DNA of 56,390 nt, taken from a virus. The translations under genes were made by a program, and so were the position numbers. This document shows positions 11,991-50,527 of this stretch, piece by piece. Numbering within the stretch: the stretch's first letter is position 1; every line of letters starts with the position of its first letter. The notes under the pieces are model-generated. The model saw only the letters and a program-made list of their open reading frames with translations, searched no databases and was not told the origin of the DNA. The DNA is taken from positions 1-56,390 of the IMG/VR virus record IMGVR_UViG_3300008450_000048. One strand, 5' to 3'.

Positions 11991-12019
11991 ATACTACAGC
12001 ATTGTGATAGCAGGTGCAA
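11991..12019 (-). promoter_or_regulatory. Leftward promoter with embedded operator (P12.0)
   Basis: Read leftward: TTGCAC (12019-12014), a 17-base spacer, then TAGTAT (11996-11991). The operator copy at 11994-12009 (TATCACAATGCTG on the minus strand) fills the spacer. It lies between the portal gene and the scaffold/capsid genes. A repressor bound here would block RNA polymerase directly. Confidence 0.75.
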
Positions 12020-12023
12020 CACC

Positions 12024-14255
12024 TTAGATCCCCGATCCTTGACGAACCTTGATGGCGGCCTCCGCATTGAAGATCTGCCGGGAGTTGTCGATCTTCAACA
12101 TCTCCAAACGCTCCTTGGCGGCCAGCTGCTCACGGGTCAGCTGCGCGTCCTGCCCCAGCTTCGTGAGCGCCAGATCCCGTTCCATGGCGCTGTCGGTCAT
12201 GGCGATCTCGTACTCGGCCTGCTCGCGCTGCGCGTTGTAGGCCAGGCTCTGAGACTTCAGATTCATCTCGGCCGTGTTGCGCTGCAACTCAAAATCGCGC
12301 TGCGCCTGGCGGTCCTGCAGCTCGAGCTGTTTGGCTTCCATGTTCATCTGCGCTGCCACGATCCGCGGATCCTGCGGTGCGCCCTGCTCGGCCTGTGCCT
12401 GCTGCTCCTGCGCCACCACGTCCTCCGGCTTCATGATCTCTTCAGGGTTCACGCGGAACGCCTTTAGGATCGCCTTCAGCTCCTCGCGCTCCTTCAAGTG
12501 CGGCGTGTAGCGCGGGTTGTTGGTGATGTTCGCCAGGTTCAGCAGCGCCTGGTTTTGGATGTCGCGCTCGATCAGCGCCGTGCTGCCGCGGGCATCGATT
12601 TCAAAGTCGCCCTTGATCGCAGGATCTGGATCGCTCGACATCTTCCAGTCGTAGTACCTGCCGATGTGCGGACGGGTGATCGAATCGTCGTACAGCTTCA
12701 CTCGCTGGCGCAGGACGGCATTGGCATTGTTATACAACATGACCATCCCGCCGACGGTCTCCGGCGCACTGCCCTGCTCGCCGCCCATGATCTGCGGCAT
12801 CGACGACTCCACGTCCGCAAACTGCATCGCGGCCTGCGCAATCGCCAGCAGCTCTTGCAGGTGGCTGTTGAACTCAAACACGCTGAACGCCTGGCGCACG
12901 TCAGCCATGTCGTCCTTGGCCAGCCAGATCTTGTTCGGCGTGATCTCCCACGAATTGTTCTGCGGGATGACCATGCCCTTCTTCATCACAATCTGGCCAC
13001 CGAGCGACGTGCGGCCGTTGTCCATCACCTGCCGCCATGCTGCGTTAACTACCCGCTGCTGGCTCTCCAGCTCGTCCGGCAGGCCGTAGCCGTAGGGGCT
13101 GCTGTCGCTCTTGCGCCAGCACCACACGTCCACCGGCAGGGTTTTGTCAGCGACCCAAGAATCCATCGCACCGATGACCTTGTCGTTGACGATCACCAGC
13201 ACGCCGAACGTCACGTCGGTCAACGGATCGCCCGTGCGAGATGACAGCATCTCCATCTCTTCCGGCTCAATCTCGCCGTGGTACGTCCACATCTCATAGC
13301 TGTCTTCTTTGATCGTGTCACGCAACACGCGACCCTCAGCCAGCCGCACGCGGTTCGGCTTTTCTCTCAGCACCTCGCGAATGACCTCGGTATCAAAGCC
13401 CGGCAGGCCGACGAGCTGTCGCAGTTCCTTGCGCGTCACATTGCGACGATAGAAAAATCCGCGGCCGCGCTGGTGATCATTGCCGCACGAAGGGTCGAAG
13501 AAAACATCCCACGGATCCAGGCGCATCGATGCCGGGACAATCGTCTCGTTGATCTGCAGCACCTGCGTGCCGTCCGGCTGCGGTAGCCAGACCTTGCTGG
13601 TCTGACGCGCAGGGAACGGGCCGTACATGACCATCGTGCCCAGCCGTATGCCGTCTTCAATGCCCTTGCGGCTCTCGCCGTTGTACTTGCACTCGGTCAG
13701 ACTGTCGTCGATCGACCGCTCCATGGCAGTCGCGGCTTCCTTCGCAGCCTGCATCACCACCTGTGCTTCTTCGTTGGCGGTCATGCCAGTCGGCTCGCCG
13801 GTCGTCGGATCAATGGTCTCGGCGTTGTTGCCGACCATGTCTGCCAAGTCTGGCAGTGGCGTTGGTTTCAGACCCCAGTTGCGATCGTCGACGGGGAACA
13901 GGATCTCGCACATGCGCGCGACCGCCTGGTCGACCTTCGGTCGTACGATGTTGATCACCACTCGAGAGCGGTTACCGTCTTGCGCCTTGCGCGCCGGCGG
14001 TCCGTTCTTCAACGTGTTCTCGAATTCGCTCGGGTTTGCCTCGCCACGGTCACCAAAGTACAGCTGGCTGTTGCGGCGCCAACGCTTCTCCACATCCGAC
14101 GTGCCGCGATGCTGGACCCACTCGTCGCGCATCTTGGTGAACATGCCGTGCAGCTTTTCAATTTCTTGACGCTGATGATGTTCGTACTGCTCTGGCGTCA
14201 TCAGCTCTTCGCCGACCATAACGGCCATGTCTTCTGGGATTTCTTTGGCATTCAT
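12024..14255 (-). CDS. Portal protein
   Basis: About 743 residues from ATG 14255, with AGGA seven bases upstream (a TTG two codons earlier is less likely). N-terminal helices are followed by RRNSQLYFGDRGEANPSEF and RSRVVINIVRPKVDQAVARM, then a long alpha/beta clip/stem region. The C-terminal third is a long Gln/Glu/Ala-rich coiled coil (QQAQAEQGAPQDPRI onward) like the barrel of P22-type portals. It lies directly after terL, with 15 bases between the genes. It forms the dodecameric vertex through which DNA enters and leaves. Confidence 0.85.
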   Translation of the reverse strand: MNAKEIPEDMAVMVGEELMTPEQYEHHQRQEIEKLHGMFTKMRDEWVQHRGTSDVEKRWRRNSQLYFGDRGEANPSEFENTLKNGPPARKAQDGNRSRVVINIVRPKVDQAVARMCEILFPVDDRNWGLKPTPLPDLADMVGNNAETIDPTTGEPTGMTANEEAQVVMQAAKEAATAMERSIDDSLTECKYNGESRKGIEDGIRLGTMVMYGPFPARQTSKVWLPQPDGTQVLQINETIVPASMRLDPWDVFFDPSCGNDHQRGRGFFYRRNVTRKELRQLVGLPGFDTEVIREVLREKPNRVRLAEGRVLRDTIKEDSYEMWTYHGEIEPEEMEMLSSRTGDPLTDVTFGVLVIVNDKVIGAMDSWVADKTLPVDVWCWRKSDSSPYGYGLPDELESQQRVVNAAWRQVMDNGRTSLGGQIVMKKGMVIPQNNSWEITPNKIWLAKDDMADVRQAFSVFEFNSHLQELLAIAQAAMQFADVESSMPQIMGGEQGSAPETVGGMVMLYNNANAVLRQRVKLYDDSITRPHIGRYYDWKMSSDPDPAIKGDFEIDARGSTALIERDIQNQALLNLANITNNPRYTPHLKEREELKAILKAFRVNPEEIMKPEDVVAQEQQAQAEQGAPQDPRIVAAQMNMEAKQLELQDRQAQRDFELQRNTAEMNLKSQSLAYNAQREQAEYEIAMTDSAMERDLALTKLGQDAQLTREQLAAKERLEMLKIDNSRQIFNAEAAIKVRQGSGI

Positions 14256-14270
14256 TTGCAATTCCTTTGA

Positions 14271-15764
14271 TCAATAGCCTGTGACTTCGTCCAGGGCAGC
14301 CCACACCGTCTCAGCGCCAGCCGGCATCGTGTTCCACGTTTCATCTTCATCTGGCCACGGCAGCGTCAAGCTCGGCTCGTCTAATCGCGCCAAACAGTCC
14401 ATGCCGTCATCGAACCGACCGACTGGGAACGTGGCGTACTCCACATCCAGCAGCTCTTGAATCAGCTCGTGCTGGTGGCCCTGCACATCCACGTAGTTGA
14501 GCGACTGCGGCATCCAAATGCGGCCGCCCTCGAACCACGGGATCAGGCGCCGGATGCGAGCGTTCTTCTCCACTGCACCGGCGACCTCAGTGATCTTGAA
14601 CCGGTACTGCCGGTGCTCCATCTCGTTTCTGATGTGCGATATGTCGCCCATCATTCCGTACCGCTCGTAGCGCACCTGCATCGGCTTGTGCTTCTTGTGC
14701 AGCTCGAAAAGTTTGTCCGCGCGCTGCGTCAACGTCAGCCGGTCAATGATCCCGTCAACGATGAATGCGTTGCCGTCGGCCGCAAGCCCCACCACCCACA
14801 TGACCGTGCGATCGCTGCGCTTGCGCTTGCCGGCCGACGTTTGCGGGTCGCCCGCCGGGTCGACCAGAATCACCTTGTTCATTTTCTTCGGCGCGTCGTT
14901 GTAGCGACAGATCCAGCTGCGCTTGAACTCCGCACCCTCGGCTGGCCGTGGCTCCTGCTGGTACAGCGAGATCCATGACCGCGGATCAGACTGCGCCTGG
15001 CGCACCATCTCATCCGTAAACCATTCTTTCCACAGCCGCTCGCCTGGCTCACGGCCCAGCGGGTCGTTGTCGCTTGCAACCATCGGCAGCTTGATGACCT
15101 CCCACCGCTGCGGCTCGCGCTCGAGCAGGCGGCCGGCCAGATCGTCCTCATGCCAGCGGGTCATGATCACCACGATCCGGCCACCCGGCTTCAGACGGGT
15201 CAGCAGATCGTTCGTCCACCACTCCCAAGTCTTCTCGCGCACGCGCTCGGAGTCCGCGTCCTCGCGGCTGCGCACCGGGTCGTCGACCACGATCAGGTCG
15301 CCGCGGCGGCCGGTAACGGATCCACCGACACCGACTGCCGTGTACTCACCACCGTGGTTAGTTCCCCACCGGCCGGCGGCCGTGCTGTCAGCGGCCAGCG
15401 TCACCTGCGGAAACAGCGCCTTGAACTCGACATCGTCCACGCCATTGCGCACCCGGCGGCCGAATCGCTCGGCCAGCTCGGCGGTGTGCGACGCCGCGAT
15501 CACCGACAGCTGCGGGTTGCGGCCAACAAAGTATTCGGGAAAGTAGACGCTGCCGTAGGTGGACTTCGCCGATCCTGGCGGCATCATCACCAGCAGCCGA
15601 TCGCATTCGCCCTTTTCGACCTTGTCCAGCGCGTTCGTCAGCAGGACGTGGTGCGGCGCCAGGCTCATGTCCTCCGGCAGGCGGTACGTGCAGTAGTGCG
15701 GGAACGACTCCCGCGCCTTGCGCCGGGAGAGCAGTTCGTTGGCGGCTTCGGCCGGCGCGATCAA
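14271..15764 (-). CDS. terL: Terminase large subunit
   Basis: A protein of 497 residues. Walker A is MMPPGSAKST (residues 60-69) and Walker B is DLIVVDD (156-162). The RNase H-like nuclease part has acidic residues in VDPAGD (near 302), YERYGMMGD (367-374) and FDDGMDC (451-457). The start is TTG at 15764 with GAGGA six bases upstream, overlapping the stop of the preceding gene. No ATG gives a complete ATPase domain. It cuts and pumps DNA into the prohead together with the small subunit encoded two genes upstream. Confidence 0.93.
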   Translation of the reverse strand: MIAPAEAANELLSRRKARESFPHYCTYRLPEDMSLAPHHVLLTNALDKVEKGECDRLLVMMPPGSAKSTYGSVYFPEYFVGRNPQLSVIAASHTAELAERFGRRVRNGVDDVEFKALFPQVTLAADSTAAGRWGTNHGGEYTAVGVGGSVTGRRGDLIVVDDPVRSREDADSERVREKTWEWWTNDLLTRLKPGGRIVVIMTRWHEDDLAGRLLEREPQRWEVIKLPMVASDNDPLGREPGERLWKEWFTDEMVRQAQSDPRSWISLYQQEPRPAEGAEFKRSWICRYNDAPKKMNKVILVDPAGDPQTSAGKRKRSDRTVMWVVGLAADGNAFIVDGIIDRLTLTQRADKLFELHKKHKPMQVRYERYGMMGDISHIRNEMEHRQYRFKITEVAGAVEKNARIRRLIPWFEGGRIWMPQSLNYVDVQGHQHELIQELLDVEYATFPVGRFDDGMDCLARLDEPSLTLPWPDEDETWNTMPAGAETVWAALDEVTGY

Positions 15765-16599: not shown

Positions 16600-16600
16600 G

Positions 16601-16855: not shown

Positions 16856-16862
16856 GATCAGC

Positions 16863-17036: not shown

Positions 17037-17122
17037 CACCATCTCCGAAAAGGGTGGCCCCGCGATCTCCAACTTTCGTGGGAGACAGTTTCACTACGGT
17101 CAGAGCCGGGGGCCGTAGATAC

Positions 17123-17150: not shown

Positions 17151-17173
17151 CGGGGCGCACTGCCCCGCCGGGG

Positions 17174-17202
17174 AATTTACACCAATGTGATACTTCGGTC
17201 AA
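17174..17202 (-). promoter_or_regulatory. Leftward promoter with embedded operator (P17.2)
   Basis: Read leftward: TTGACC (17202-17197), a 17-base spacer, TAAATT (17179-17174). The operator copy lies at 17177-17192 (TATCACATTGGTG on the minus strand). It overlaps the 3' end of the ribbon-helix-helix-like gene region and serves the packaging genes. Confidence 0.75.
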
Positions 17203-19566: not shown

Positions 19567-19595
19567 ATTATAAGCTTTGTGATACTTCTAGCCAA
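19567..19595 (-). promoter_or_regulatory. Leftward promoter with embedded operator (P19.6, PR'-like position)
   Basis: Read leftward: TTGGCT (19595-19590), a 17-base spacer, consensus TATAAT (19572-19567). The operator copy at 19569-19584 (TATCACAAAGCTTATA on the minus strand) spans spacer and -10. It overlaps the 3' end of the Q-like gene, the same place as lambda PR' relative to Q. Confidence 0.8.
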
Positions 19596-20180: not shown

Positions 20181-20593
20181 CGTGTCCCCTCCTCGCTGAC
20201 CTCGACCATCACCCGGCCGCCCTTCACCGGCTCGACCACCTCAAACCCGACGCGCCACTTGCTGTCGTCCACGCCCATCGCATCAGCCAGGCCATCGAGG
20301 CCGGCCTTCATGGACGCGAGCATGTTGTCCCAGTCCCTGGCCCGTTTGTCCGGCGGGAAGAACATCAGATCGACGCGTACGGCGTTTTCTGACCCCCGGA
20401 GGTATCCAAGCCCCGCCAGCTCGCCGATCGCCCTGCAGCGGGCGCGATAGACCCTTTTGAGCTTGCTCGTCACCGCCCAGTGCTCGCGCGCGTTCGGCGA
20501 CAGACGCCGATCAGGCCAAGGAATTTCCAGCAGGAAACTTCTTTTGTGACAAGTCACATTATTAATTTTTTCTATCACTTTGCTGATCTCCAT
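20177..20593 (-). CDS. rusA: RusA-family Holliday junction resolvase
   Basis: Up to 138 residues. The core starts at FLLEIPWPDRRLSPNAREHW and holds the catalytic aspartates in RARDWDNM (D87, D89), GLDGLAD (D100) and VDDSKW. RusA cuts four-way junctions and helps resolve branched DNA before packaging. The start is unclear. ATG 20593 has no ribosome site and lies within an operator copy; GTG at about 20578 has GGAG nine bases upstream. Two operator copies overlap the 5' end. Confidence 0.85.
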   Translation of the reverse strand: MEISKVIEKINNVTCHKRSFLLEIPWPDRRLSPNAREHWAVTSKLKRVYRARCRAIGELAGLGYLRGSENAVRVDLMFFPPDKRARDWDNMLASMKAGLDGLADAMGVDDSKWRVGFEVVEPVKGGRVMVEVSEEGTR

Positions 20594-20607
20594 TAATCAT
20601 TGTGATA
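20573..20607. promoter_or_regulatory. Tandem operator copies at the 5' end of rusA
   Basis: Two copies: 20573-20588 (TATCACTTTGCTGATC) and 20592-20607 (ending ATTGTGATA). The second overlaps the ATG at 20593-20591. The -10 for leftward transcription (TAATGG) is plausible but the -35 is poor, so they may act as roadblocks or as part of an autoregulated start. Confidence 0.5.
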
Positions 20608-20664
20608 GTTCTGCGGTGCGGCTTTTGGCGCAAACCGGGTGGACTTTTTGTGAAGTTTTTCTGG

Positions 20665-20885
20665 CCTGTCCGCCACCCATCCGCCTCTATCCGCCACCCC
20701 TAAAGGGTGTGGCGGATTGGCGGATAGCGCCCGCCAAAGATCCGCCAACTTATCCGCCAACTGCCACCACCTCAAAACCCGCATAAACACTGGCTTTTTT
20801 CGATGTCGCTGGCTTATCCGCCAGCTATCCGCCAAACATCCGCCAGTTGCCAATTTGATACGTCCGCCAAGCTATCCGCCAACAC
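20665..20885. other. Iteron block, probable replication origin
   Basis: The 305-base gap between rusA and the primase gene holds 13 copies of TATCCGCCA or close variants: eleven direct (20669, 20679, 20688, 20730, 20740, 20751, 20815, 20826, 20837, 20863, 20873) and two inverted (20710-20717, 20718-20726). A T-rich stretch lies on the left (20641-20665). Arrays like this, beside the replication initiator gene, are typical of initiator-bound origins such as lambda ori. An open frame of 86 codons crossing the array only reads the repeats and is not a gene. Confidence 0.75.
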
Positions 20886-20898
20886 TTTTGCCTATTTT

Positions 20899-22935
20899 TT
20901 AGGCAGATAAATCACTCGAATTCATGGCCAGAAAACCGGTCATGGACAGGTGATCTATTGCACTTTCGGAAAGATCCCAGCCGCCCTTGCCGCCGCTTGC
21001 GAGACCCTGATCCTTCATCGTTTTCATGATTCTGGAGATCGTCCGCTCGCTGCAACCGAGCGCGATCGCCATCGGCGGGACGCCCGGCCAGCGCGGATGC
21101 ATGGCCTTGGCCACGTCCAAAGCGGTCAGATCCGTGCCGTTGGTCCGCTTGCCGACCACGAAGTCCATGGGGTTCCCGTCGACCTCGATGTAGGCGCCCA
21201 TGATCTCGACATCGCATTCGTCGTTGATCCCAAGGCCGGTCTGGACGATCTTGAATCGCCGCTTGGCCGGCATCTCGGCGTCTTTCATTTTGGTAACTTG
21301 CATCTCGATCTGGCCCATCGATCCCTTGACCCAGATCTCCTGGTCCATGGCGCCTTTGAATGCGGAAGATCCCCGCGCACGGTCCATGTCATGGCCTGAG
21401 TGGTGGACGGTCATGACGTTGCACTTCCACCGCCGGCGGATGTACTCGTCCAGGTGCTCGATGAACATGTTCGCGTCCTGCTGCTTGTTCTCGTCCCCGT
21501 CGCCGAAGTTCCTGGCCAGCGTGTCGACGATCACCAGCGACGGTGCGTGCCCGGTCTGCGCGGCCAGCCGCTCGACTTCCAGCGACAGGCCTGCTGCCGC
21601 GTCAGCGTTCAGGATCATGACCGCCCGGTTGGACTTGAAGAGCGGAACGTCCTTGGACAGCTTCACGCCGCGCGCTTTCTGCCAGGCTGCGAATCGGCGT
21701 GCGAGACCGTTGTGGCCTTCGCCGGCGATGTAAAACACCGCTCCCTGCTTAACAGGCATCCCGTGCCAGGGTGTGCCGGTGGCAACACAGCAGGCGATGT
21801 CGACCACGGTGAAGGACTTGCCCCCGCCGGAGGGTCCAAAGACCATCGACAGGGCGTCCGTCTCGAGGTAGTTCTCGACCAGCCACTGGATGGGTTTTAA
21901 GTCGTTCAGCAGCTCGTCGACCTGCGTGAACAACGGCCGGTCTGGCTCTTGTGCCTGGATCTCGCCGGTCTCTGGATCGACGAACTGCAGTGCCGGGCGT
22001 GGCGGTGGCTTGTATTTCTCCTCAGCGCCGCGCACGCAGCGAGGGATGTCTTTGTATCGGCTCTCCCAGCGATCGTCTTTGGCGCCTGGATAGGCGTTCA
22101 TGAGGCCGCGCAGCATGTTCGTGACCGCCGCTGGGTGGGCGCCGGTTGAGATCATCGATGCGGCAATGATGTTCAGTGGCTCATGAAATGAGCCTGCCAT
22201 GACGGCCTGCACGGCTGCCTGCAGTTTCTCGTCCTGCGTTGTGCCGAACGAAGTCGGCATCGGAATTGAGAGGTTTGCTGCGGCCACCGATGCATTGCGC
22301 ACCGAGTCCAGATCCATGCCGACCGACGCGCATGCGTCTTCCAGTGTCAGCCGGATCTCCGGGCGCCAGACCAGCAGGCGATGCTTGAAGTGCCCCGTCA
22401 CCCGCGGCTTCTGGTTCGTCCCCTGCGGCAGGCGAACGTATCGAACAGAATTGTTGCCGGAGATGTCGCCGCCAATGAAGCCGCGCATGGTCATGGACTT
22501 CACGACCGCCGAGCACAGGTCTTCGTTGGCGCAATCTGGATCGTCGCCGTCTAAGAAGTAGCCAGCCTGGGTCTTGCCGGGTGATGTCTCGAGCACCCAC
22601 GAGGGTGGTGAGAAGAGGCTTTCGAGGTCCACGTCGTCGACCACCAGCGCCAGCATGCGAACGAAGGTGGACTTTCGCCGGTAGAAGTAGCCGTCCTGTG
22701 CCTTGCCGACTGCAGCAACGCTGAAGTAGGTATTGAACTCTCCCCAGCTGTCGCACATTGACCGCTCGTGGTCGGCCGGCGTGTAGACCACGCCCTTCCA
22801 CTTTGCGTCATCGCTGTTCGGGTTCCCGTGGAAGCGGTTGACCCACAGGCACGCGCCTTCTGGCGCACCCTGCGCCAGCTCGGCCAGGAAATCGGTGTTG
22901 GAAACTACAGCATTGTGATTCTCTTGTGTGCTCAT
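20899..22935 (-). CDS. Primase-helicase (RepB/AEP-like primase plus RepA-like AAA+ ATPase)
   Basis: A protein of 678 residues from ATG 22935 (MSTQENHNAVVSNTDFLAEL), with GGGGAGGG about ten bases upstream. A TTG start at 23025 is less likely. Residues 90-130 carry primase-like motifs (LALVVDDVD, ETSPGKTQAGYF). NNSVRYVRLPQGTN follows at about 161. Walker A is FGPSGGGKS (366-374), with FYIAGEGHNG and LVIVDTLARN downstream. The C-terminal 70 residues look like a winged helix (PPMAIALGCSERTISRIMKT). It should prime and unwind at the adjacent iteron origin. Confidence 0.85.
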   Translation of the reverse strand: MSTQENHNAVVSNTDFLAELAQGAPEGACLWVNRFHGNPNSDDAKWKGVVYTPADHERSMCDSWGEFNTYFSVAAVGKAQDGYFYRRKSTFVRMLALVVDDVDLESLFSPPSWVLETSPGKTQAGYFLDGDDPDCANEDLCSAVVKSMTMRGFIGGDISGNNSVRYVRLPQGTNQKPRVTGHFKHRLLVWRPEIRLTLEDACASVGMDLDSVRNASVAAANLSIPMPTSFGTTQDEKLQAAVQAVMAGSFHEPLNIIAASMISTGAHPAAVTNMLRGLMNAYPGAKDDRWESRYKDIPRCVRGAEEKYKPPPRPALQFVDPETGEIQAQEPDRPLFTQVDELLNDLKPIQWLVENYLETDALSMVFGPSGGGKSFTVVDIACCVATGTPWHGMPVKQGAVFYIAGEGHNGLARRFAAWQKARGVKLSKDVPLFKSNRAVMILNADAAAGLSLEVERLAAQTGHAPSLVIVDTLARNFGDGDENKQQDANMFIEHLDEYIRRRWKCNVMTVHHSGHDMDRARGSSAFKGAMDQEIWVKGSMGQIEMQVTKMKDAEMPAKRRFKIVQTGLGINDECDVEIMGAYIEVDGNPMDFVVGKRTNGTDLTALDVAKAMHPRWPGVPPMAIALGCSERTISRIMKTMKDQGLASGGKGGWDLSESAIDHLSMTGFLAMNSSDLSA
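22905..22920 (-). promoter_or_regulatory. Operator copy inside the primase 5' end
   Basis: The plus-strand 16-mer ends in CATTGTGATT. It lies 15-30 bases inside the primase gene. The minus-strand CACAATGCTGTAGT is shared with P12.0, but there is no good -35. It may act as a downstream roadblock for the P23.1 promoter. Confidence 0.5.
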
Positions 22936-23107: not shown

Positions 23108-23137
23108 ACTTAACCATTGTGATATTCAGCTGCTCAA
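23108..23137 (-). promoter_or_regulatory. Leftward promoter with embedded operator for the primase (P23.1)
   Basis: Read leftward: TTGAGC (23137-23132), an 18-base spacer, TTAAGT (23113-23108). The operator copy is 23109-23124 (minus-strand TATCACAATGG). It lies between the Cro-like gene and the primase gene. Confidence 0.65.
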
Positions 23138-23167: not shown

Positions 23168-23195
23168 TTGCACAAAACTTCACAGCTGTTATGCT
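23168..23195 (+). promoter_or_regulatory. Rightward promoter antisense to the Cro-like gene (PRE-like geometry)
   Basis: TTGCAC (23168-23173), a 16-base spacer, TATGCT (23190-23195). The spacer holds an operator-like 16-mer (23178-23193, CTTCACAGCTGTTATG). Transcription would run antisense through the Cro-like gene and then into the CI-like gene, the geometry of lambda PRE. Confidence 0.5.
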
Positions 23196-23380
23196 CTGCG
23201 CCTCAGAATCTCAGGTGATGCCTTGAGTTTGCCCTTGGTGATGTGCTCGAGCCGCAGCTGCTGCAAGTGGGGAATCTTCCCCCGAGTTCGCCACATGGAG
23301 ATGGTCGGCTGCTGCACGCCGAGTGCCTGGGCGACAGCGACTTGCGATCCGAAGAACTTGATGACTTGGTCTATTTTCAT
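23189..23380 (-). CDS. Cro-like helix-turn-helix regulator
   Basis: A protein of 63 residues, MKIDQVIKFFGSQVAVAQAL. The helix-turn-helix covers residues about 11-32 (SQVAVAQALGVQQPTISMWR), followed by KIPHLQQLRLEHITKGKLKA, the usual short Cro/YdaS-type end. It is divergent from the CI-like gene and is the first gene of the leftward replication arm. It is expected to repress lysogeny functions or moderate early transcription by binding the same operators as the CI-like protein. That binding is inferred. Confidence 0.8.
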   Translation of the reverse strand: MKIDQVIKFFGSQVAVAQALGVQQPTISMWRTRGKIPHLQQLRLEHITKGKLKASPEILRRRA

Positions 23381-23397: not shown

Positions 23398-23435
23398 TTG
23401 CAGGTACTTGCTCTAACAGTATAACTCTTGTGATG
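23398..23435. promoter_or_regulatory. Divergent promoter region with operator between the two regulators
   Basis: Rightward: TTGCAG (23398-23403), a 16-base spacer, TATAAC (23420-23425). Leftward: TATACT at 23423-23418 with a weak -35 near 23446-23441. The operator copy 23420-23435 (TATAACTCTTGTGATG) overlaps the rightward -10/start and lies in the leftward spacer. One bound dimer could therefore affect both directions. Confidence 0.65.
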
Positions 23436-23437
23436 GC

Positions 23438-23472: not shown

Positions 23473-23871
23473 ATGACAAAGCATGTTCCGCAAAACCACG
23501 TAGGCGATAAGCTTGATCCCGCATTTCAGTCCTGGGCCAAGAAGGCCTCTATAGGAGAGAGACTGAGGTGGTTACTTGAGTACCGGGACATGAAACAGAC
23601 GCAACTCGCAGAGACCATTGGCACCACGCAGGCGGCGATATCGAACATCGTCACCAACGCATCACGAAAACCCAGCGCACCGACGCTGCTCAGAATGGCA
23701 GCCGCCCTCCAGGCGTCCGCAGACTGGATCATCACCGGCGACGGGCACCCGTTTGAAGTCTCGACGGTAGGCAAGCGCGCCGAGAAAGACCTGCTGGCAG
23801 CGTTTCGGGACATGGATCCACAAGCCCAAGCGGCGCTGCTTGCTGCCGCGAAGGCGATGTCAAACAAATAA
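23473..23871 (+). CDS. CI-like repressor (XRE family, no peptidase domain)
   Basis: A protein of 132 residues, MTKHVPQNHVGDKLDPAFQS. An XRE helix-turn-helix lies at about residues 28-80 (GERLRWLLEYRDMKQTQLAE, then TIGTTQAAISNIV). The C-terminal 45 residues (KRAEKDLLAAFRDMDPQAQA) are helical. They lack the S24/LexA Ser-Lys protease domain, so RecA-stimulated self-cleavage is not expected. It leads the rightward arm that ends in int, as lambda cI does. It is the best candidate for the protein binding the dispersed operators. Confidence 0.8.
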   Translation: MTKHVPQNHVGDKLDPAFQSWAKKASIGERLRWLLEYRDMKQTQLAETIGTTQAAISNIVTNASRKPSAPTLLRMAAALQASADWIITGDGHPFEVSTVGKRAEKDLLAAFRDMDPQAQAALLAAAKAMSNK

Positions 23872-23923: not shown

Positions 23924-23953
23924 TTGCAAGTAACTTCACAATGGTGATATATT
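23924..23953 (+). promoter_or_regulatory. Early rightward promoter with embedded operator (P23.9)
   Basis: TTGCAA (23924-23929), an 18-base spacer, TATATT (23948-23953). The operator copy is 23934-23949 (CTTCACAATGGTGATA), the most complete palindrome of the early promoters. It serves the small-gene operon from 24017. Confidence 0.8.
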
Positions 23954-24501: not shown

Positions 24502-24517
24502 TATCACATTGCTTATT
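24502..24517. promoter_or_regulatory. Operator copy between early genes
   Basis: TATCACATTGCTTATT lies in the 28-base gap between two early genes, just before a ribosome site. No strong -35 is seen. It may be a roadblock site rather than a promoter operator. Confidence 0.5.
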
Positions 24518-25717: not shown

Positions 25718-25896
25718 ACAATCGCAAATGGCCACGAACATTGAACGAAGCTTTTCCAAACACCATTGAGTACAGCTGCGCAATCGAACGCCCCAGGCCA
25801 AGAAACTGGATTTCTTGGAATCGATTGATTGTCTGGTTTATTGTTGGCGGCCTTATCACAATGCTAATCCGAAATATCGTTTTACCCCTTGCATAA
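25714..25896 (+). CDS. Small membrane protein
   Basis: A protein of 60 residues, MNNRKWPRTLNEAFPNTIEY. A C-terminal hydrophobic helix (LIVWFIVGGLITMLI) follows a polar N-terminus. It overlaps the upstream gene by ATGA. Its last codons overlap the -35 box of P25.9. Function is unknown. Confidence 0.55.
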   Translation: MNNRKWPRTLNEAFPNTIEYSCAIERPRPRNWISWNRLIVWFIVGGLITMLIRNIVLPLA

Positions 25897-25916
25897 CTTC
25901 ACGCTTGTGATATTAT
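25889..25916 (+). promoter_or_regulatory. Early rightward promoter with embedded operator (P25.9)
   Basis: TTGCAT (25889-25894), a 16-base spacer, TATTAT (25911-25916). The operator copy is 25897-25912 (CTTCACGCTTGTGATA). It serves the gene at 25983. Confidence 0.75.
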
Positions 25917-26295: not shown

Positions 26296-26311
26296 TATCA
26301 CAATGGCTATT
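26296..26311. promoter_or_regulatory. Operator-like motif overlapping a start codon
   Basis: TATCACAATGGCTATT lies between GGAGG and the gene starting at 26303 and contains its ATG. It closely matches the operator at 34360-34375. The site at 27365 has the same arrangement. No promoter boxes fit here. Confidence 0.4.
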
Positions 26312-26894: not shown

Positions 26895-26918
26895 CGGACT
26901 TCACAATGCTGATATACT
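26891..26918 (+). promoter_or_regulatory. Early rightward promoter with embedded operator (P26.9)
   Basis: TTGACG (26891-26896), a 16-base spacer, TATACT (26913-26918). The operator copy is 26899-26914 (CTTCACAATGCTGATA). It serves the recombination genes. The leader has only a weak GGTT/AACC hairpin. Confidence 0.8.
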
Positions 26919-27364: not shown

Positions 27365-27380
27365 CATCACAATGGCTATA
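27365..27380. promoter_or_regulatory. Operator-like motif overlapping the start of the Sak4-like gene
   Basis: CATCACAATGGCTATA contains the ATG at 27372, just after GGAGA. It has the same arrangement as 26296. Both genes begin with the codons for MAIS, so part of the match may come from shared coding sequence. Confidence 0.35.
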
Positions 27381-29498: not shown

Positions 29499-30566
29499 AT
29501 GGCAAAACCGCCCGAACCAATGCATTCAACTGCCGCCCTGATCTATCAGGCGTATGAGAACGACGCCGACTCCGGCAACCGCCCGCACCTGGGCGCGTCC
29601 CTGATCGGCCACGCCTGCGAACGCTATCTGTGGATGACGTTCCGATGGGTCGAAGACAAGAAGTTTGACGGCCGCATGCTGCGCCTATTCCAGACCGGCG
29701 ATCGTGAAGAGGCGCGCCTTGTTGCCAACCTGCGCCGCATCGGTGTGCAGGTGCATGACAAGACACCGGACGGCCAGCAGTGGCGCGTGTCCGATGTCGG
29801 CGGCCACTTCGGCGGCAGCATGGACGGCGCAGCTCTTGGACTGCCGGAAGCGCCGAAGACCTGGCACGTGCTCGAGTTCAAGACGCACAACGAGAAAAGC
29901 TTCAAAGAGCTGAGCAAGGGTGTGCGTGTGGCCAAGCCGCAGCACTACGCGCAGATGCAGATCTACATGGGTCTGACTGGAATGGACCGCGCTTTTTACA
30001 TGGCGGTCAACAAGAACAACGACGAGCTGTACACCGAGCGCGTGGAGTTTGACCCGGTTGAATTCGCCAGGCTGAAGGCGCGCGCTGAGCGTGTGATCAA
30101 TGCAACCGAGCCGCCGCTGAAGATCAGCGAAGACCCGAGCTGGTACGTCTGCAAGATGTGCGACTTCCACGAGCACTGCCACGGGACGGCTGCGCCGCAG
30201 GTCAACTGCCGCACGTGCGCTCACAGCACGCCGCAGATTAACGGCGAAGCGCGATGGTCCTGCTCTAGAGGCACCGCCGACTTGAACATCAGCAGTATTC
30301 CGATGGACCTGCAGCGCACCGGCTGCAGCTCGCACCGGTACATCCCGATCCTGCTGCAGAACTTCGCGACGCAGGCGGACTATGTCAATGGTGATGTTAT
30401 GTACACCGATTGCGATGGCATTGTGTTTGGCAACGGCGAGAACCCTGGATCGCTGACCAGCCATGACATCCGCAACCTGAAAGCAAAGTCACTGGCCGGT
30501 GGCATGGCAGAGCTGAAGAAGGAAATCGACGAGGTCTTCGGACCAGGCAGCAAGGTGGTCGCATGA
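29499..30566 (+). CDS. PD-(D/E)XK nuclease (Cas4/RecB-like phage exonuclease)
   Basis: A protein of 355 residues from ATG 29499 (MAKPPEPMHSTAALIYQAYE), with GGAG upstream. The nuclease core has GDREE (68-72), GSMDG (D109) and VLEFKTH (E126, K128), followed by the helix KPQHYAQMQIYMGL. The C-terminal part has several Cys residues (CKMCDFHEHC, CRTCAHS), possibly an Fe-S or zinc site as in Cas4/AddB-type enzymes. It should resect DNA ends for the Sak4/SSB-like recombination system. Confidence 0.85.
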   Translation: MAKPPEPMHSTAALIYQAYENDADSGNRPHLGASLIGHACERYLWMTFRWVEDKKFDGRMLRLFQTGDREEARLVANLRRIGVQVHDKTPDGQQWRVSDVGGHFGGSMDGAALGLPEAPKTWHVLEFKTHNEKSFKELSKGVRVAKPQHYAQMQIYMGLTGMDRAFYMAVNKNNDELYTERVEFDPVEFARLKARAERVINATEPPLKISEDPSWYVCKMCDFHEHCHGTAAPQVNCRTCAHSTPQINGEARWSCSRGTADLNISSIPMDLQRTGCSSHRYIPILLQNFATQADYVNGDVMYTDCDGIVFGNGENPGSLTSHDIRNLKAKSLAGGMAELKKEIDEVFGPGSKVVA

Positions 30567-32769: not shown

Positions 32770-32811
32770 TTGCAGGGGGTGATGCCGGGCCGTACAATCA
32801 CATTGCTGATA
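32770..32811 (+). promoter_or_regulatory. Promoter with operator for the xis-int pair
   Basis: TTGCAG (32770-32775), a 17-base spacer, TACAAT (32793-32798). The operator copy is 32796-32811 (AATCACATTGCTGATA) and overlaps -10 and the start point. It lies 18 bases before the excisionase gene. Confidence 0.7.
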
Positions 32812-34347: not shown

Positions 34348-34376
34348 TTGTCCCTGAAGTATCACAATGCTATTGA
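34348..34376 (+). promoter_or_regulatory. Promoter with embedded operator after attP (P34.4)
   Basis: TTGTCC (34348-34353), a 17-base spacer, TATTGA (34371-34376). The operator copy is 34360-34375 (TATCACAATGCTATTG). The repeat GTTTGTCCCTGA occurs twice just upstream. The next ATG is at 34390, with GGAG before it. The rest of 34202-34347 holds attP and no gene. Confidence 0.65.
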
Positions 34377-42300: not shown

Positions 42301-45300
42301 GCTGCCAGTCTTAACGCTGATCGGCTGGCCGTTCTTGTACTGCGCCCACGCACGCAGCGCGAACGTGGAGTTGGCATCAACTTTCGCCTGCGGTGAGTAG
42401 ATCGCCAGCAGCGCAACGAACTTGCGCGCTTCCTGCACGTCGCCGCCCACCATCTTCAGGACTTCTTTGCCGCTGTTCTCGTACCAATAGCGACCCGGCG
42501 CGCCCTCGTCCGCCAGCTGGCGCAGGATCTTGCGCAGTGTCGGAATCTTGCCCGGCGTGTTGAATTTCGCAGGCGCACCGATGTACTTGCCGTCCTTCAT
42601 GGGCAGCTTGTCGAGCACCGCGCCGGCTCGGCTGTATGCAGTCTTCCTGCCTTCCAGCGCAGCCTTGACTCGAGGCGCTGCAGACGTGGTGAACACGATG
42701 CCGTCTTTGGTGACGCGACCCTTCACGTCATCCGGGATCTGCGCACGGATAGCATCCGGGTCACCGTAGACCACGGCCGTGCCGTCCTTCATCGTGCGAA
42801 CTTCAAAGTCACCTACCTGTTCTGCGCCACGGCGGGACATGACAGGCTCGGCTGTCTGCTCTGTCTGAACCTGCACTTGCTGTTCAGCCAGGTTGCCTTT
42901 GCGGAACTGGATCAGCGCATCGCGCGCCACCATCTTGGCTTTGTTCAGATCGCGGATGTACTGGTCGACCTTCGCGGACTCTTTGGTGCCCTGAGTCTTA
43001 CCGCCCTTCAGCTTGGCAATCAGGTTGTCGACGACGGCCAGCCAGCGCCGCACAAAACCTTCGAAGCCCTGCGGATCTTGCTGTGCCAGATCAATCAAGA
43101 ATTCCCGGTCTTGCGCACGGTTGCCAAGGAAGTCGGCAACCATCTCCGAGCGCGTGGCCGGTGCAGTCATGAACGCCTGCACCTTAGCTTCACGCTCTGC
43201 GGGATCGGCAATCTTTGCAAGATCAGCCTTGTGCAGGAAGTTTTCGATGTAGGCGCGCTTGCCCTCATCGGTCATGTCATCAAAGATGCTGTCAAGCTGC
43301 GCGGTAAATTCCTGCGCAGACTTGCTGCCAGAAGCTGCCAGCTGCTCTGCTACGTGACGCAGCTCGTGCAGCACCGTCTTCGGTGCATCGATCGCTGTTG
43401 AATCAAGCGACGTGTTGACGAACGCAATACCGCCCAGCGCAAACCCGTTGTCGCCCCTTGGATCGCTGTATGCGACAACGCGATTGCCGGTGCCAGTCGC
43501 ATCACCAAAGATACGGCCAAGCGCGCTGACAGTGGTCTCTGCATCCGCATCGGGAGTGCCGAGCTTTGGCGCATCCGGCAAACGACCGCGGGTGACAAGA
43601 TCATCTAGGTACGCTTGTACGCTGGCTCGAGAATCGGGAGCGCGTGGATTTCGGGCAAACTCTGCAAGGACGGCGTCAGGCACCGGCGACTGTCGGTCGA
43701 GGAGGTCTGGGAGCTGTCTTGCTGAGGCTGCTGGTACTTCTTGTCCTTGCGCTTCTGCTTGGACGGCTTGAGCGGTTTGAGCGACACGGGGCGTCTCCTG
43801 TGTGGGGGCGTTCAGCCCAATGGTTTCCACGGTGCCGGCGGCGGTTCCGGCGGCGGGTAATGCTTGTCTTGTGGGGGCAGCGGGTACTTGGGCATCGAAC
43901 TTTTCGTATCCAGCCAAGCGGTACTTACCGCTCGGCATTTGCTCAACCTTCCAGTCGAGCGTGGGGAACATGCGCTGACGGCCAGGCAATGCCTGCCCGG
44001 CGTCAGCCTCGGTGACATAGCCATCTCCACGCCGGCCAGTCCATTGCTCAACCGGCTGTGTATTAGCATTGTTATCTTGCTGCGGATTCAAGGCAGCCTG
44101 AACACGTGCGGCCAGGTCCTGATCAGTGGCGCGCTGGTCAACCTGCGGCAGCCTACTTAGACCGGGAGGCAGTTCTCCGGCTCGGCCTCGAGCAGCCACA
44201 TCCGCCCCAGCATTGGCTGTAATGCTTCCGGCATCTCCACCAATTCGTGCGGTGTCATCGATACCAAGTCCTGGAATGCCCAGGCTTCCGCCAAGCTGAT
44301 CGCTCCCTGTGAGACTGCCCAAGCCAGTTGCGGCTCTAGTTGCGCTATCTGTGCTGACATCAGGAACCTCCGTAGAAGCAGGAACAATGATCGGAGCCAG
44401 GCCAGCCTTCGCGCTTGGGCTGTCGGCAGGTGTGAAGTTCATCTCGCTGCGCATAGGCGCAGCTGTAGCAACGTCGCCGGGTGGGCGCGTTGTCTGCGAA
44501 GGGTCAATCAGTGTCGGGTCATACGTCTTGGGATCCAGCAGGTACGTGGCTGTGAGATCACCCGCGCTGGCCATCTGATCCTGCTGTTGCTGCTGCTGCG
44601 CGTCTTTGTACTGACTGCGAATGGCAGCTGCACTGAATGGCGCCGACGTGACGAGCGCGGTTCCCATTGCTTCTGGAACGCCCTCAAACAGCGACTGCTT
44701 AGGATCGACAGTGCGAGTCACCACGTTACTGCCCAGCTGCGTGCCGCCCTCCTCGAGCTGCTCACCGACCAGATCTTTGCCGGCGGTCTTTGCCATCCCC
44801 TTGACGGTCAGCGCCTCTGCCGCAGTCTTACCCAAGCCTCGAGAAGCGATCGCAGCCTCAGCACCAGCGTAGCCAAGCAGACCAAGCGGAGCGGTAATTA
44901 GAGCCGCCATCCTGGCCTTGGTCGTGGCGATCTCTTCGATCGCCTGCGACTCAGTCTTGCCTTCCTTAACCAGCTTCTGGAAGTCGGGGTTCTGCCTCCA
45001 AACGGACAGAGGAACTTTGTCCCGGTCGGTCAGGTTTTCGTACACGTTGCCAGCCGCATCACCGCCAGCCATGACCATGGATGCACCCACGCCGCCGGTC
45101 GTTGTGCCGATGGCTCTACCGGCTGTGGAAAGACCGCCGCCGGTGATTGCCTCGCTCACAGCGACAGCAGGACTCACCCGGCCAGCAACATTCACTGCGC
45201 CAGATGTAGCCGCGCCGACCACTCGTGCTGCGCCCACAATGCCAAGGAAGTTCGGCAACTGTTTGGCAGCTTCAGAAATAGTCAGCGTTGGGTCAGTGAC

Positions 45301-46101: not shown

Positions 46102-46104
46102 AGT

Positions 46105-47079: not shown

Positions 47080-47081
47080 AA

Positions 47082-47585
47082 TTACACCTCTTCTGTGTTC
47101 TCTTCCGCTGCTTGACGGAACACCGACGGATCAACTTGACTCATCGCCTGGTCAAGCTGAGACGTATCCAATCCTTGCTCTTGCAGATAGCGAAGAACCA
47201 TTTGCTTGAATGCCATCGCTACATTCTCCGGCTGCGGATCAAGACCAGACGCGTTAGCGATCTCCACTACTTCTTCGAGAACTTTCATCGCCAACGGCAC
47301 AAGCAGCTCGTCAGGTACTTGCCCGTTCGTTCTCTCATCTATAACTGCTGTGATATCGTAGGCAACATTCGCCAACGCATCTGTCAGATCGCCAGCAGAT
47401 TTCAACTGCTTTGATACATCCATGGCAGCTTCGTTGCTGTACAAAGACTCCATCGCCAGCGCAAGAGCTTCCTGAAACTTCGGGTCGCTTTCGTCAACCT
47501 CTGGCTCACCTTGATTGGCACCCATTGCCATCTCTGGCGGCATGCCCTCTGCTTCCTGCATTTCATTTGCAATTAATCCGGCCAT
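47082..47585 (-). CDS. Acidic virion-associated protein
   Basis: A protein of 167 residues, MAGLIANEMQEAEGMPPEMA. It is acidic and helical (DELLVPLAMKVLEEVVEIAN). It is two bases from the next gene and part of the internal-protein operon. No family is recognised. An operator-like string (47335-47350) occurs inside but may be chance. Confidence 0.6.
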   Translation of the reverse strand: MAGLIANEMQEAEGMPPEMAMGANQGEPEVDESDPKFQEALALAMESLYSNEAAMDVSKQLKSAGDLTDALANVAYDITAVIDERTNGQVPDELLVPLAMKVLEEVVEIANASGLDPQPENVAMAFKQMVLRYLQEQGLDTSQLDQAMSQVDPSVFRQAAEENTEEV

Positions 47586-47595
47586 GATTTACTCC

Positions 47596-48507
47596 TTATG
47601 CAGTTGGCATCGCGTACGGGTTGTAGGGCGCCAAGCGGCGGCGCATGTCTTCTGCGTACCTTTCTTGTGGCGTCATGTAACCGGCAACCAGACCGGTCTG
47701 CGGGGATTGCGCATACGTTCCAGGTGATGAAGCAGCAGGGTCTGCGTTACCAGAACCCGACCACCAGCTTGTGCCGACGTTTTCGTTGTAACGATTGCGA
47801 GCCAATTGAGCTTGCTCTTGCTCGTACCTGCGCTGCTCTTCCATCGCCTTCTGCTGACCAGCGCCTTGGATCGCGCCCCCTGCGAGCTGCATGCTGCCCT
47901 GCACAGCAGCCATCTTTCCGTAGTCACCTAAGCTGTTCCAAGCGCCGGAGATAATGCCGGGATTGGGAGGTGGCGCAGTTACGGCTTGAGCTGGTGAAGT
48001 CCAATATGTACCTGGCGTAGTAGCGGCACTAGCCGGCGCTGAAGATAAAGTTGTGCCAGCCGCGGTCTGGCCGCTCGGGCCAACGCTTCCGTATCCACCA
48101 GCGCCAGCAGGGAAGCCGCCACCAGCAGCAGACACAGCCGCCGCATTCGCTGCGTTTACCGCAGAAGAACCAGCTGCATAAGAGCCGGTAAAGCCGCTGC
48201 CAAGCGAGCTGCCTGCTGCTGAGAATTGGCCGCCCATCGCCGCGCTTGCCGCGCCGGTTAGACCAGACCAAGCGTTTGCGATGCCAGCCGTAGCGCCCTT
48301 TAGGGCGCCCCCTATAGTCCCCATAAATCCCGTGCTGGCAGAGGCACCTCCCATGGCCCCCATGATGGCTGCGCCACCAAAGTAAACGGTTGCCGCAGCA
48401 AGCAAGACTTTGCCGATCGGAGACTTGGCAACACTCTTGACGACGTTGACTACACCTTTGACGACCTTGCCAATTGCTCGGCCAACACTCTTAACAACTT
48501 TACTCAT
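47596..48507 (-). CDS. Gly/Ala-rich internal virion protein with amphipathic N-terminus
   Basis: A protein of 303 residues, MSKVVKSVGRAIGKVVKGVV. The first 50 residues are a repeated V-K-x amphipathic helix leading to a hydrophobic Ala/Gly segment (VLLAAATVYFGGAAIMGAMG). The middle is low complexity. The C-terminus has a coiled segment (QQKAMEEQRRYEQEQAQLAR). It should be a membrane-active ejection protein. Confidence 0.7.
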   Translation of the reverse strand: MSKVVKSVGRAIGKVVKGVVNVVKSVAKSPIGKVLLAAATVYFGGAAIMGAMGGASASTGFMGTIGGALKGATAGIANAWSGLTGAASAAMGGQFSAAGSSLGSGFTGSYAAGSSAVNAANAAAVSAAGGGFPAGAGGYGSVGPSGQTAAGTTLSSAPASAATTPGTYWTSPAQAVTAPPPNPGIISGAWNSLGDYGKMAAVQGSMQLAGGAIQGAGQQKAMEEQRRYEQEQAQLARNRYNENVGTSWWSGSGNADPAASSPGTYAQSPQTGLVAGYMTPQERYAEDMRRRLAPYNPYAMPTA

Positions 48508-48944
48508 GATGCACCTCTTACGTATGTGAGATTTAGCGACTCGCGTGAGAACCCGACCCGTTTAAAGAATCGAACAAGCCTCGGATCAACACCAGGCTCA
48601 AGCTCAATGATTGCCAGCTTGATGGCTGGACGACTCTTTACCCAACGAACAAACTCCCGCAGCAATGGCAAGCCAGCACCCGGTACACGGCTGTAGTAAA
48701 GCAGCACGGAGCACTGCATCCGTTCAAACCAGAATGCTGGCTGTACACACGCCCCCATTGCCGCCACCACCTTGCCCGCATCTTCAGCAACCCACACAAA
48801 GTGCGCCGGCCCCAAGCACGTCTTAGCCGTCTCTGCCATCGCTTCTCGGTCAATGCGCACCGGCAGCGGGTCTTTCGACACCGACTCAACGGCGATGTCA
48901 ACGATGGCTGGAATGTCGCTCATGGTTGCTTTTCTAAAGATCAT
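48504..48944 (-). CDS. GNAT N-acetyltransferase
   Basis: A protein of 146 residues from ATG 48944 (MIFRKATMSDIPAIVDIAVE), overlapping the upstream stop by ATGA; a longer frame to 48992 reads into that gene. The GNAT fold is seen in FVWVAEDAGKVVAAMGACVQ, then YYSRVPGAGLPLLREFVRWV and FFKRVGFSRESLNLTYV. Its place between two internal virion genes suggests it modifies a virion protein or acts in late infection. The substrate is unknown. Confidence 0.8.
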   Translation of the reverse strand: MIFRKATMSDIPAIVDIAVESVSKDPLPVRIDREAMAETAKTCLGPAHFVWVAEDAGKVVAAMGACVQPAFWFERMQCSVLLYYSRVPGAGLPLLREFVRWVKSRPAIKLAIIELEPGVDPRLVRFFKRVGFSRESLNLTYVRGAS

Positions 48945-50419
48945 GCAGTCGGTAAACCTGGAATGGTTGTTCCGTAAAACTTGTTCGCCCACGCAATCTG
49001 CGAGTTCGCGTAATTAATCACGCTTTGAATTGCACGGCTCTTGGGGCTTGATCCAGCCGGAGCCGTTCCATCAACCTTTCCACTCAAGTTCGGATCAGCA
49101 CCAATCGTGTTAATGCTGGCAGCCGTTGTGTTACTGATCTGCAAAGCAAAGTTCGCCGGAATCTGCGAGTTGGTCAGGTTTTTCTGGAAAGCTTGCGCAT
49201 CGTCTTGCAAGAAGATTTGCTGCTGACGATCCAGTCCTGCCTGCGCAGCAGTGAACGACTGCTGCATCTGAGTGATCGCAACCTGATGCGCTTGCTGATC
49301 GTTCTGCATCTTCTCCTGCTGAACACGATCCAAGCTCGACTGAGAAGCGGCAAAGTCGTTCTGCGCTTTCTGCAAAGCCATCTGGTTGGCCGCGCTCTTG
49401 TCTTGCAAGAACGCCTGCTGCGCGCGCTCGAGGGCAGACTGCGAAGCAGAAAAATCCTGCTGGAATTTTGTGAGGTCTTTCTGCAGCACTGCTTGACGCT
49501 CAACCAATGTGGTTTGCTGCGTACGGTCAAGAGCCGACTGAGCTGCATTAAAGTCGTTCTGCGCCTTCTGGAGCGCCATCTGATTTGCTGCGCTCTTGTC
49601 CTGCAAAAATGCTTGTTGAGCACGATCCAATGCAGACTGAGCGGCAGTAAAGTTTTGCTGACTGGTCTGCAGGTTGGTCTGCAGACTACGATCCAACGAA
49701 GATTGCCCGGCTTGGAACGTCTGCTGCTCGCGCTGCAAGGAGGTCTGCTGCGTACGATCCAGCGCACTCTGCGCAGCCGCAAAGTTCTGTTGAGCCACTT
49801 GCAAAGCTTGTTGAGCTTCAATGCTCTTGTCTGCCAATGCAGTCTGCTGCGCACGGTCAAGCTGTGCCTGAGCAGCCGTAAAGTTCTGCTTGACGTTTTC
49901 CAGAGTCGAAGTGAACGACTGCGACCCCAGACGCTCAGATGTCGTGAACTGACGATTGATGTTGGATTGACCGGCCTCAAACTCTTGAGCACCTTTCTGC
50001 AAGCCAAACTGGTTGATGGCACCAGCGCCAAACTCGTTGGCGCGATTTGTCGCACCCATGTTTTCAGATGCCGTCACCGCATAGGTCTGCGCATCCTGCT
50101 GCGCCATCGGCAGCGCACGGTCAACCATGGCGGCCACGCCTGCGCCCTGATTCATGGAGCTGTTGACCAGACCCCGCTGCGCCATGCCTTGTGTGGCCAG
50201 CGTTCTGGCGCGCTGCATAAGCGGGCTGTCTTTTGACAGGATGCTGTTGACCTGCCCTTGTACCGTCTCAGTCTGGGCGTTGACTTGGCGCGTCTGTGGA
50301 TCGTAAGTTGCGACACTGTTAGACGGCGGCAGCGCCGAAGCTACCAAGCCAGTCGTTGTGTTCGGATTGGTCGCAGACTTCTGCTGGGTGTCAAAGGGGT
50401 TTTGAACAGTCGTAGCCAT
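48941..50419 (-). CDS. Repeat-rich coiled-coil virion protein
   Basis: A protein of 492 residues, MATTVQNPFDTQQKSATNPN. Residues about 170-410 hold eight copies of a motif of the type NFTAAQSALDRAQQ, separated by 4-20 residues. A 25-residue string starting RAQQAFLQDKSAANQMALQK occurs twice without change. The region is predicted helical and Gln/Ala-rich. The C-terminus ends FYGTTIPGLPTA. It is the first gene after the P50.5 module and opens the internal-protein operon. Confidence 0.7.
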   Translation of the reverse strand: MATTVQNPFDTQQKSATNPNTTTGLVASALPPSNSVATYDPQTRQVNAQTETVQGQVNSILSKDSPLMQRARTLATQGMAQRGLVNSSMNQGAGVAAMVDRALPMAQQDAQTYAVTASENMGATNRANEFGAGAINQFGLQKGAQEFEAGQSNINRQFTTSERLGSQSFTSTLENVKQNFTAAQAQLDRAQQTALADKSIEAQQALQVAQQNFAAAQSALDRTQQTSLQREQQTFQAGQSSLDRSLQTNLQTSQQNFTAAQSALDRAQQAFLQDKSAANQMALQKAQNDFNAAQSALDRTQQTTLVERQAVLQKDLTKFQQDFSASQSALERAQQAFLQDKSAANQMALQKAQNDFAASQSSLDRVQQEKMQNDQQAHQVAITQMQQSFTAAQAGLDRQQQIFLQDDAQAFQKNLTNSQIPANFALQISNTTAASINTIGADPNLSGKVDGTAPAGSSPKSRAIQSVINYANSQIAWANKFYGTTIPGLPTA

Positions 50420-50430
50420 CTCCGGCCTTT

Positions 50431-50460
50431 CAAACAGAAACGCCCCGACAAAGCGGGGCG
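50431..50460 (-). terminator. Leader terminator between the P50.5 promoter and the internal-protein operon
   Basis: Minus strand: CGCCCCG-CUUUGU-CGGGGCG (50441-50460) followed by UUUCUGUUUG. A hairpin upstream (GCGGG with CCCGC, 50464-50492, plus an inner TGCG/CGCA stem) stands first in the leader. Confidence 0.85.
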
Positions 50461-50497
50461 AGCGCGGGCTGCGAGAAAGCGCAATAACCCGCAGTCA

Positions 50498-50527
50498 ATT
50501 CTAAACCAATGTGATACTCAATGCCAA
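50498..50527 (-). promoter_or_regulatory. Leftward promoter with embedded operator (P50.5)
   Basis: Read leftward: TTGGCA (50527-50522), an 18-base spacer, TAGAAT (50503-50498). The operator copy is 50501-50516 (minus-strand TATCACATTGG). It serves the genes for internal virion proteins. Confidence 0.75.

Follow-up and report, generated by a model that had tools for sequence, protein, structure and literature searches.

A dispersed candidate operator of a CI/Cro switch recurs at promoters, start codons, gene junctions and coding sequence in an uncultured phage family

Results

The window analyzed here is the whole of IMG/VR virus record IMGVR_UViG_3300008450_000048 (G000; 56,390 b), and its subject is a palindrome, TATCACNNNNGTGATA, that is scattered through the genome around a divergent cro/cI pair at 23.4 kb. 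Transcription runs leftward over 1-23.4 kb, rightward over 23.4-36.3 kb and then leftward to the end. The genes encode TerL, a portal protein related to the portals of HMO-2011-like podoviruses, the major head protein, a 3243-aa giant protein, a primase-helicase, Sak4, SSB, a Cas4-type exonuclease, a helicase, a tyrosine integrase, a P22-type Cro and a short CI-like HTH_3 protein. Since an exact 114-b repeat occupies the window ends (1-114 = 56277-56390), the record is either terminally redundant or circular, which makes the two genes at its ends a single gene; given this repeat, it is probably complete, with unique sequence amounting to ~56.28 kb. The site, its number, positions, orientation, conservation and co-occurrence with Cro and CI were read directly from the DNA.

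Several independent tests confirm that the motif is real. A first-pass annotation had listed 17 copies, and sequence of the kind described is present at 17 of 17. At up to two mismatches TATCACNNNNGTGATA occurs 8 times, against 0.8 expected (200 dinucleotide shuffles, maximum 4), and seven of the eight matches are intergenic in a genome that is 6.4% non-coding. Motif discovery, which the annotation had proposed, recovered the palindrome de novo: TATCAC-N4-GTGATA ranked first in the dyad search of intergenic DNA (7 versus 0.15 expected), and ATTGTGATA was the most over-represented 9-mer (7 versus 0.10). The palindrome is imperfect, as had been described, and systematically so, with one strong half, TTGTGATA, and one weak half. 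A second motif, TATCAC-1-GTGATA, which gave the top dyad count in relatives G006 and G005, was rejected; it consists of the TATCACA half and a degenerate second half.

How many copies are there? When the window was scanned at a score of at least 12 with a matrix whose training set comprised solely intergenic sites from other phages, 20 intergenic sites (3.66/kb) and 11 coding sites (0.22/kb) were found, so that density is not equal in the two kinds of DNA but differs ~17-fold. An earlier matrix, with coding sites in its training set, had given 32 window sites versus 1.6 in shuffles; that matrix had picked up homologous coding segments (cas4 exonuclease 'GACATA') as contaminants, and retraining used intergenic sites only. 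The previous count of about 17 was too low: the true number is about 30, with the listed 17 all included. Additional sites include 5707, 8291, 9328, 12719, 25854, 26296, 27365, 44061, 47340 and 45 (= 56321). The statement that nearly all copies are intergenic was nearly right, except that the site at 22905 lies inside the first primase codons and the one at 23178 overlaps the cro stop codon. The coding matches at 30381 and 17576 seem to reflect protein conservation or to be spurious.

Sites were classed by context as distant (promoter), start-codon, junction and coding. About half lie between the -35 and -10 of sigma70-like promoters, and the remaining half or so are at start codons, directly past stop codons or within genes. 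When promoters were required to match at least 8/12 positions with 16-18 b spacing in the transcription direction, 10 of the 17 listed sites qualified, against 2.0 expected from letter shuffling, in agreement with the 'at least nine' suggested before. Among 91 unique sense sites of the distant class, the in-register promoter match is 7.6/12 compared with 5.4-5.5 in flanking controls, and a match of at least 8 occurs at 47 of the 91 versus 1 and 3 in controls. In this class TATCAC follows the -35 and the other half is merged with the -10, as in TTGACC-GAAGTATCACATTGGTG-TAAATT; in early promoters CTTCAC lies past the -35 and GTGATA runs into the -10 (for example TTGACG-N16-TATACT at 26899). These arrangements support putative dispersed operators around the divergent cro/cI pair and at the promoters of the cro, primase, early, terminase/capsid and internal-protein operons. 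The proposal of dispersed promoter control thus stands for the promoter copies, but about half of the copies have no promoter and are left unexplained by a pure promoter-operator model.

The copies outside promoters are strongly oriented. The start class is a near-invariant Shine-Dalgarno (SD)-TATCACA-ATG arrangement with no promoter signal (5.6 versus 5.5 in the control), and sites of the junction class lie directly past a stop codon and extend into the SD, as in TAAATATCACATTGCTATAGGAG of G006. In non-promoter sites the TATCACA half almost always reads along transcription, with sense to antisense counts of 23:0 in the start class and 27:4 in the junction class; the intergenic sites of the window divide 15:4. 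With the full matrix G011 gives 12:0; one leave-one-out orientation count for G011 was inverted, since a near-symmetric matrix can flip.

Coding copies were compared with synonymous-codon shuffles within genes, which preserve proteins and codon use. The window has 8 sense and 0 antisense coding sites, whereas shuffles give 0.5 sense sites and 0 of 300 reach 8. Over eight genomes the counts are 41 sense and 6 antisense versus 3.1 and 0.6 in shuffles, with sites homologous between genomes included. Because coding sites exceed the synonymous shuffles, protein sequence, SD sequences and start codons are insufficient as their cause, and this excess is the strongest evidence for DNA-level selection of oriented non-promoter copies. 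Perfect palindromes also occur within the giant gene at G006 8427 and G012 30390, with similar flanks, and are possibly internal promoter-operators.

Related phages, drawn from IMG/VR contigs, had been suggested as a place to look for the same sites, and nine related virus records carry them. In G002, G006, G008, G011 and G012 the motif ranks first or close to first among intergenic dyads, and matrix sites are present in all near full-length relatives that carry Cro, most having 14-28 intergenic sites. G009 and G010 are mutually close, and G009 was left out of training and pair counts. A site accompanies 64 of 97 orthologues of site-bearing genes, compared with 13 of 186 for other genes. Spacing recurs as well: the site lies 55-65 b upstream of 26970 orthologues in 7/7 relatives and 87-100 b upstream of the start of the 48941 virion gene orthologues in 8/8. 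At the cro 3' end the dyad is perfect in most genomes and its 4-b centre differs; in most others than G000 the site over the cro stop is mostly a perfect CTTCAC-N4-GTGATA with centres GCGC, ACCC, GCTC, GAGC and AGAC. Such a pattern, with perfect arms around a 4-b centre that varies, is the signature of a dimer site. Records G013, G015 and G016 share Sak4 and/or TerL homologues, gave no Cro hit and had 0 sites at a score of at least 14. In G005 (45 kb, TerL 97% identical) matrix sites are present and Cro was not found; this record may be a fragment.

Several relatives appear to have lost cI naturally. In 7 related records a cI orthologue diverges from cro, and the gene is deleted or truncated in several relatives. 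G011 (L169-L170) keeps cro, the operators and a short 5' cI remnant, and no tyrosine integrase was detected in it. L194, L200, L215, L218 and L220 have cro without an adjacent cI, with L215/L218/L220 sharing one arrangement. These cI-less relatives, G011 among them, retain cro and the site densities and are apparently virulent derivatives. In G008 (L162-L164), cI and cro are present and a search for tyrosine integrase gave no hit, which may reflect another integration type or an incomplete record. The more distant Cro lineages L224, L226 and L227 are poor in sites of the present matrix type or lack them. Enrichment of a TTCACA-2-TGTGAA dyad in L227 suggests a shifted operator specificity in the L227/L226 lineage.

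What could read these sites? Among solved phage structures, CI is nearest to the P22 C2 and 434 repressors, and cro is conserved in near full-length relatives. A domain-model search of the 132-aa CI found only a helix-turn-helix (HTH) and no peptidase/S24 (cleavable LexA-like C-terminal) domain. Neither the 132-aa CI nor the 63-aa Cro showed a second (Stoperator-type) DNA-binding domain in sequence models, which hit only HTH and which a distant domain could escape.

Table 1. The cro/cI pair and the candidate operator sites of the window.
Feature	Position	Strand	Support or conservation
cI-like repressor gene, 132 aa, HTH_3	23473..23871	+	Pfam HTH_3 3e-10; PHROG repressor families
cro, 63 aa, P22_Cro family	23189..23380	-	PF14549 4.9e-17
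Operator between cro and cI, TATAACTCTTGTGATG	23420..23435	.	Roughly the same position in most relatives
Operator over cro stop codon	23178..23193	-	Same position in most other genomes
Operator upstream of primase-helicase operon	23109..23124	-	Score 29.4; also G002, G006, G008, G011
Site within first primase codons	22905..22920	-	Matrix
Operator in early rightward promoter TTGCAA-N18-TATATT	23934..23949	+	Retained in cI-deleted L194
Junction site, stop codon then SD of 24529	24502..24517	+	Context
Extra oriented site upstream of 25983	25854..25869	+	Matrix
Operator in 25983-operon promoter (TTGCAT/TATTAT)	25897..25912	+	Matrix and promoter match
Start-codon site GGAGG-TATCACA-ATG, 26303 gene	26296..26311	+	Matrix, context
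Operator, promoter TTGACG-N16-TATACT before 26970/sak4 operon	26899..26914	+	Promoter 10/12
Start-codon site GGAGA-CATCACA-ATG, sak4	27365..27380	+	Also at sak4 start in G002, G006, G010
Site upstream of small gene preceding integrase	32796..32811	+	Matrix, context
Junction site upstream of 34390 gene	34360..34375	+	Matrix, context
Site on 5' side of 20177 gene	20592..20607	-	Matrix
Weaker second site beside 20592	20573..20588	-	Score 14
Operator in promoter TTGGCT-N17-TATAAT	19569..19584	-	Promoter 10/12
Operator in promoter TTGACC-N17-TAAATT, terminase side	17177..17192	-	Promoter match
Operator upstream of scaffold/capsid operon, TTGCAC-N17-TAGTAT	11994..12009	-	Orthologue with site in 5/6 relatives
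Operator, promoter TTGGCA-N18-TAGAAT, 48941 virion operon	50501..50516	-	Promoter match
Junction site upstream of 53398 gene	53775..53790	-	Orthologue: site <=20 b upstream in 6/7 relatives
Sense site within structural gene	5707..5722	-	Same place in G002, G012; above synonymous shuffles
Sense coding site	8291..8306	-	Same place in G005, G008, G010, G012
Sense coding site	9328..9343	-	Score 22.7
Sense site within portal gene	12719..12734	-	Score 19.0; same offset in G011
Sense site within 3243-aa giant gene	44061..44076	-	Similar offset in G002, G006, G010, G011, G012
Sense coding site	47340..47355	-	Score 15.2
Sense coding site (= 45-60 via terminal repeat)	56321..56336	-	Matrix

Other features of the record bear on its biology. 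The ~230 b of non-coding DNA at 20660-20890, past the primase gene 3' end, holds 9 copies of TCCGCCA and 2 of TGGCGGA, compared with 4 and 2 in the rest of the genome; the cluster looks like an iteron-type replication origin. No tRNA genes were found in the window. A query of the cultured phage collection with the 20-30 kb region found none close at the DNA level, and a host search with the Cro profile against genome contigs gave only weak, unrelated matches. The paper on the Bcep22-like phage JC1 mentions a repressor and lysogeny, and a term search of its text for 'operator' and 'promoter' found neither.

Discussion

We consider it likely that the copies of the palindrome together serve as dispersed operators for a CI/Cro switch and that they combine promoter operators with stoperator-like blocks to elongation. 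The motif would be recognized in DNA by immunity regulators that the phage itself encodes, the CI-like protein encoded at 23473 and probably also the Cro encoded at 23189, which probably shares at least the promoter sites. In a lysogen, repressor would occupy about 30 sites. At promoters it would cover the spacer and the -10, stopping initiation of each operon separately, late virion operons included. At start codons, junctions and within long genes it would block RNA polymerase leak-through, as L5 stoperators do, and such a readthrough block by CI is the most likely role of the oriented non-promoter sites. During lytic growth, loss of CI would open the genome and Cro would damp the early genes. 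The cI losses, which parallel D29, suggest that CI is the immunity repressor, and Cro may use the sites too.

Several points weigh against this proposal. The identity of the binding protein, promoter repression and the elongation block are all inferred from sequence, as is binding of CI or Cro to the sites in particular. A symmetric dimer offers no obvious reason for strict orientation, and in the start class orientation is partly forced because TATCACA-ATG supplies an ATG in one orientation only. The family counts are not independent events, since some sites are homologous across genomes. A second DNA-binding domain of the L5-repressor type (PMC9283540) is not seen in Pfam for CI or Cro. Finally, retention of sites in cI-less phages is also expected if only Cro uses them.

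Could the promoter palindromes alone be functional? The other copies would then be by-products of weak cryptic promoters, codon and SD habits, or protein conservation. About half of the sites do lie in good promoters, and the doubtful coding matches at 30381 and 17576 fit this explanation, but the start class keeps its near-invariant TATCACA-ATG past the SD without promoter signal, and the coding sites are oriented and more frequent than synonymous shuffles allow. We therefore regard it as unlikely, though worth serious weight. Slightly less probable is that Cro is the main reader of the sites, as a governor of the lytic phase, with CI secondary. The cI-less relatives named above keep cro and their site densities, and the distant Cro lineages L224, L226 and L227 have few or no such sites, as Cro use would lead one to expect; however, cI may have been lost recently, as in D29, a phage that retains its stoperators although it lacks a functional repressor (PMC5712189), and the sites cover late operons, whose silencing a typical Cro does not need.

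An element in RNA, with UAUCACAAUG in the mRNA bound by a translational or termination factor, would suit the sense orientation and the positions at SD sequences, start codons and within genes. We judge it very improbable, as there are perfect dyads, the promoter copies, located between the -35 and the -10, precede the start of the transcript, and conserved arms 4 b apart with a variable centre are a DNA-dimer pattern. Least probable of all are sites for a host factor, CRP- or DnaA-like, or boundary sequences that promote recombination. A CRP site, TGTGA-N6-TCACA, has its halves arranged the other way round, and the spacing of the DnaA box, TTATNCACA, is different; simple readings of both types are rejected on these geometric grounds. 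The position at gene junctions is in keeping with a boundary role, and L5 relatives recombine at stoperators (PMC5712189), but the sites track Cro/CI and are absent from the three distant-phage records with Sak4/TerL homologues.

Why would a second such system matter? Silencing of every operon through operators and oriented sites has been described mainly in mycobacteriophages, where stoperators are textbook knowledge for cluster A and the puzzle is why orientation matters. If our proposal is true, a system that pairs a small, unrelated repressor with dyadic sites, and that has many sequenced relatives, natural cI deletions among them, would make the orientation question testable, and operon-by-operon prophage silencing, late genes included, would be a recurring strategy. 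The motif could also be a sequence tag for predicting immunity groups of uncultured phages. More tentatively, and at somewhat less than an even chance, a metagenomic family of temperate podoviruses of Gram-negative type may have independently evolved orientation-dependent, genome-wide stoperator immunity over a lambda-type CI/Cro switch, with single-HTH proteins and with sites merged into start codons, stop-SD junctions and coding sequence.

Comparison with known systems

The divergent cI/cro pair with an operator between the genes, and a Cro of the P22_Cro family, resemble lambda and P22, and the half-site TATCAC is also that of lambda operators. Unlike lambda and P22, the sites here are genome-wide, CI lacks a cleavable C-terminal domain and there is one cro-cI site instead of three. 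Phages of the T1/Stevie type carry 16-20 asymmetric, mainly intergenic, transcription-oriented repeats that have been likened to stoperators (PMC4319613), but their sequence is different, the phages are lytic and the function of the repeats is unknown. P1 C1 controls many operons through 22 asymmetric, widely dispersed operators; however, its 17-b asymmetric site, ATTGCTCTAATAAATTT, is unrelated to the present consensus, and strict orientation and copies at start codons or in coding sequence are not part of the P1 description (PMC8546580).

The 20-30 dispersed sites of L5 and cluster A are mainly intergenic and mainly in one orientation, with a few in promoters (PMC6550527, PMC9283540, PMC5712189). 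They are 13-14 b long without a dyad, whereas the present sites are 16 b long and partly dyadic, several being perfect TATCAC-4-GTGATA. Moreover, the L5-type repressor is a monomer with an HTH and a Stoperator domain (PMC9283540) in contrast to the small single-HTH CI and Cro here, cluster A phages have no Cro of the common kind, and the promoters here are sigma70 promoters of Gram-negative type. Because two defining L5 features (sites with no dyad and a two-domain repressor) failed, we do not file this system as an L5-type member. The likenesses are nevertheless substantial: the 20 intergenic and 11 coding sites of the window are dispersed and mostly intergenic, one orientation to transcription predominates (start 23:0, junction 27:4, coding 41:6, window intergenic 15:4), L5 too has a few promoter sites, and sites are kept in repressor-deleted relatives. 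D29, a repressor-deletion derivative beside L5 (PMC5712189), keeps its integration genes, unlike G011 with no tyrosine integrase detected; D29 has kept its sites without a working repressor, and G011 with a short 5' remnant of cI.

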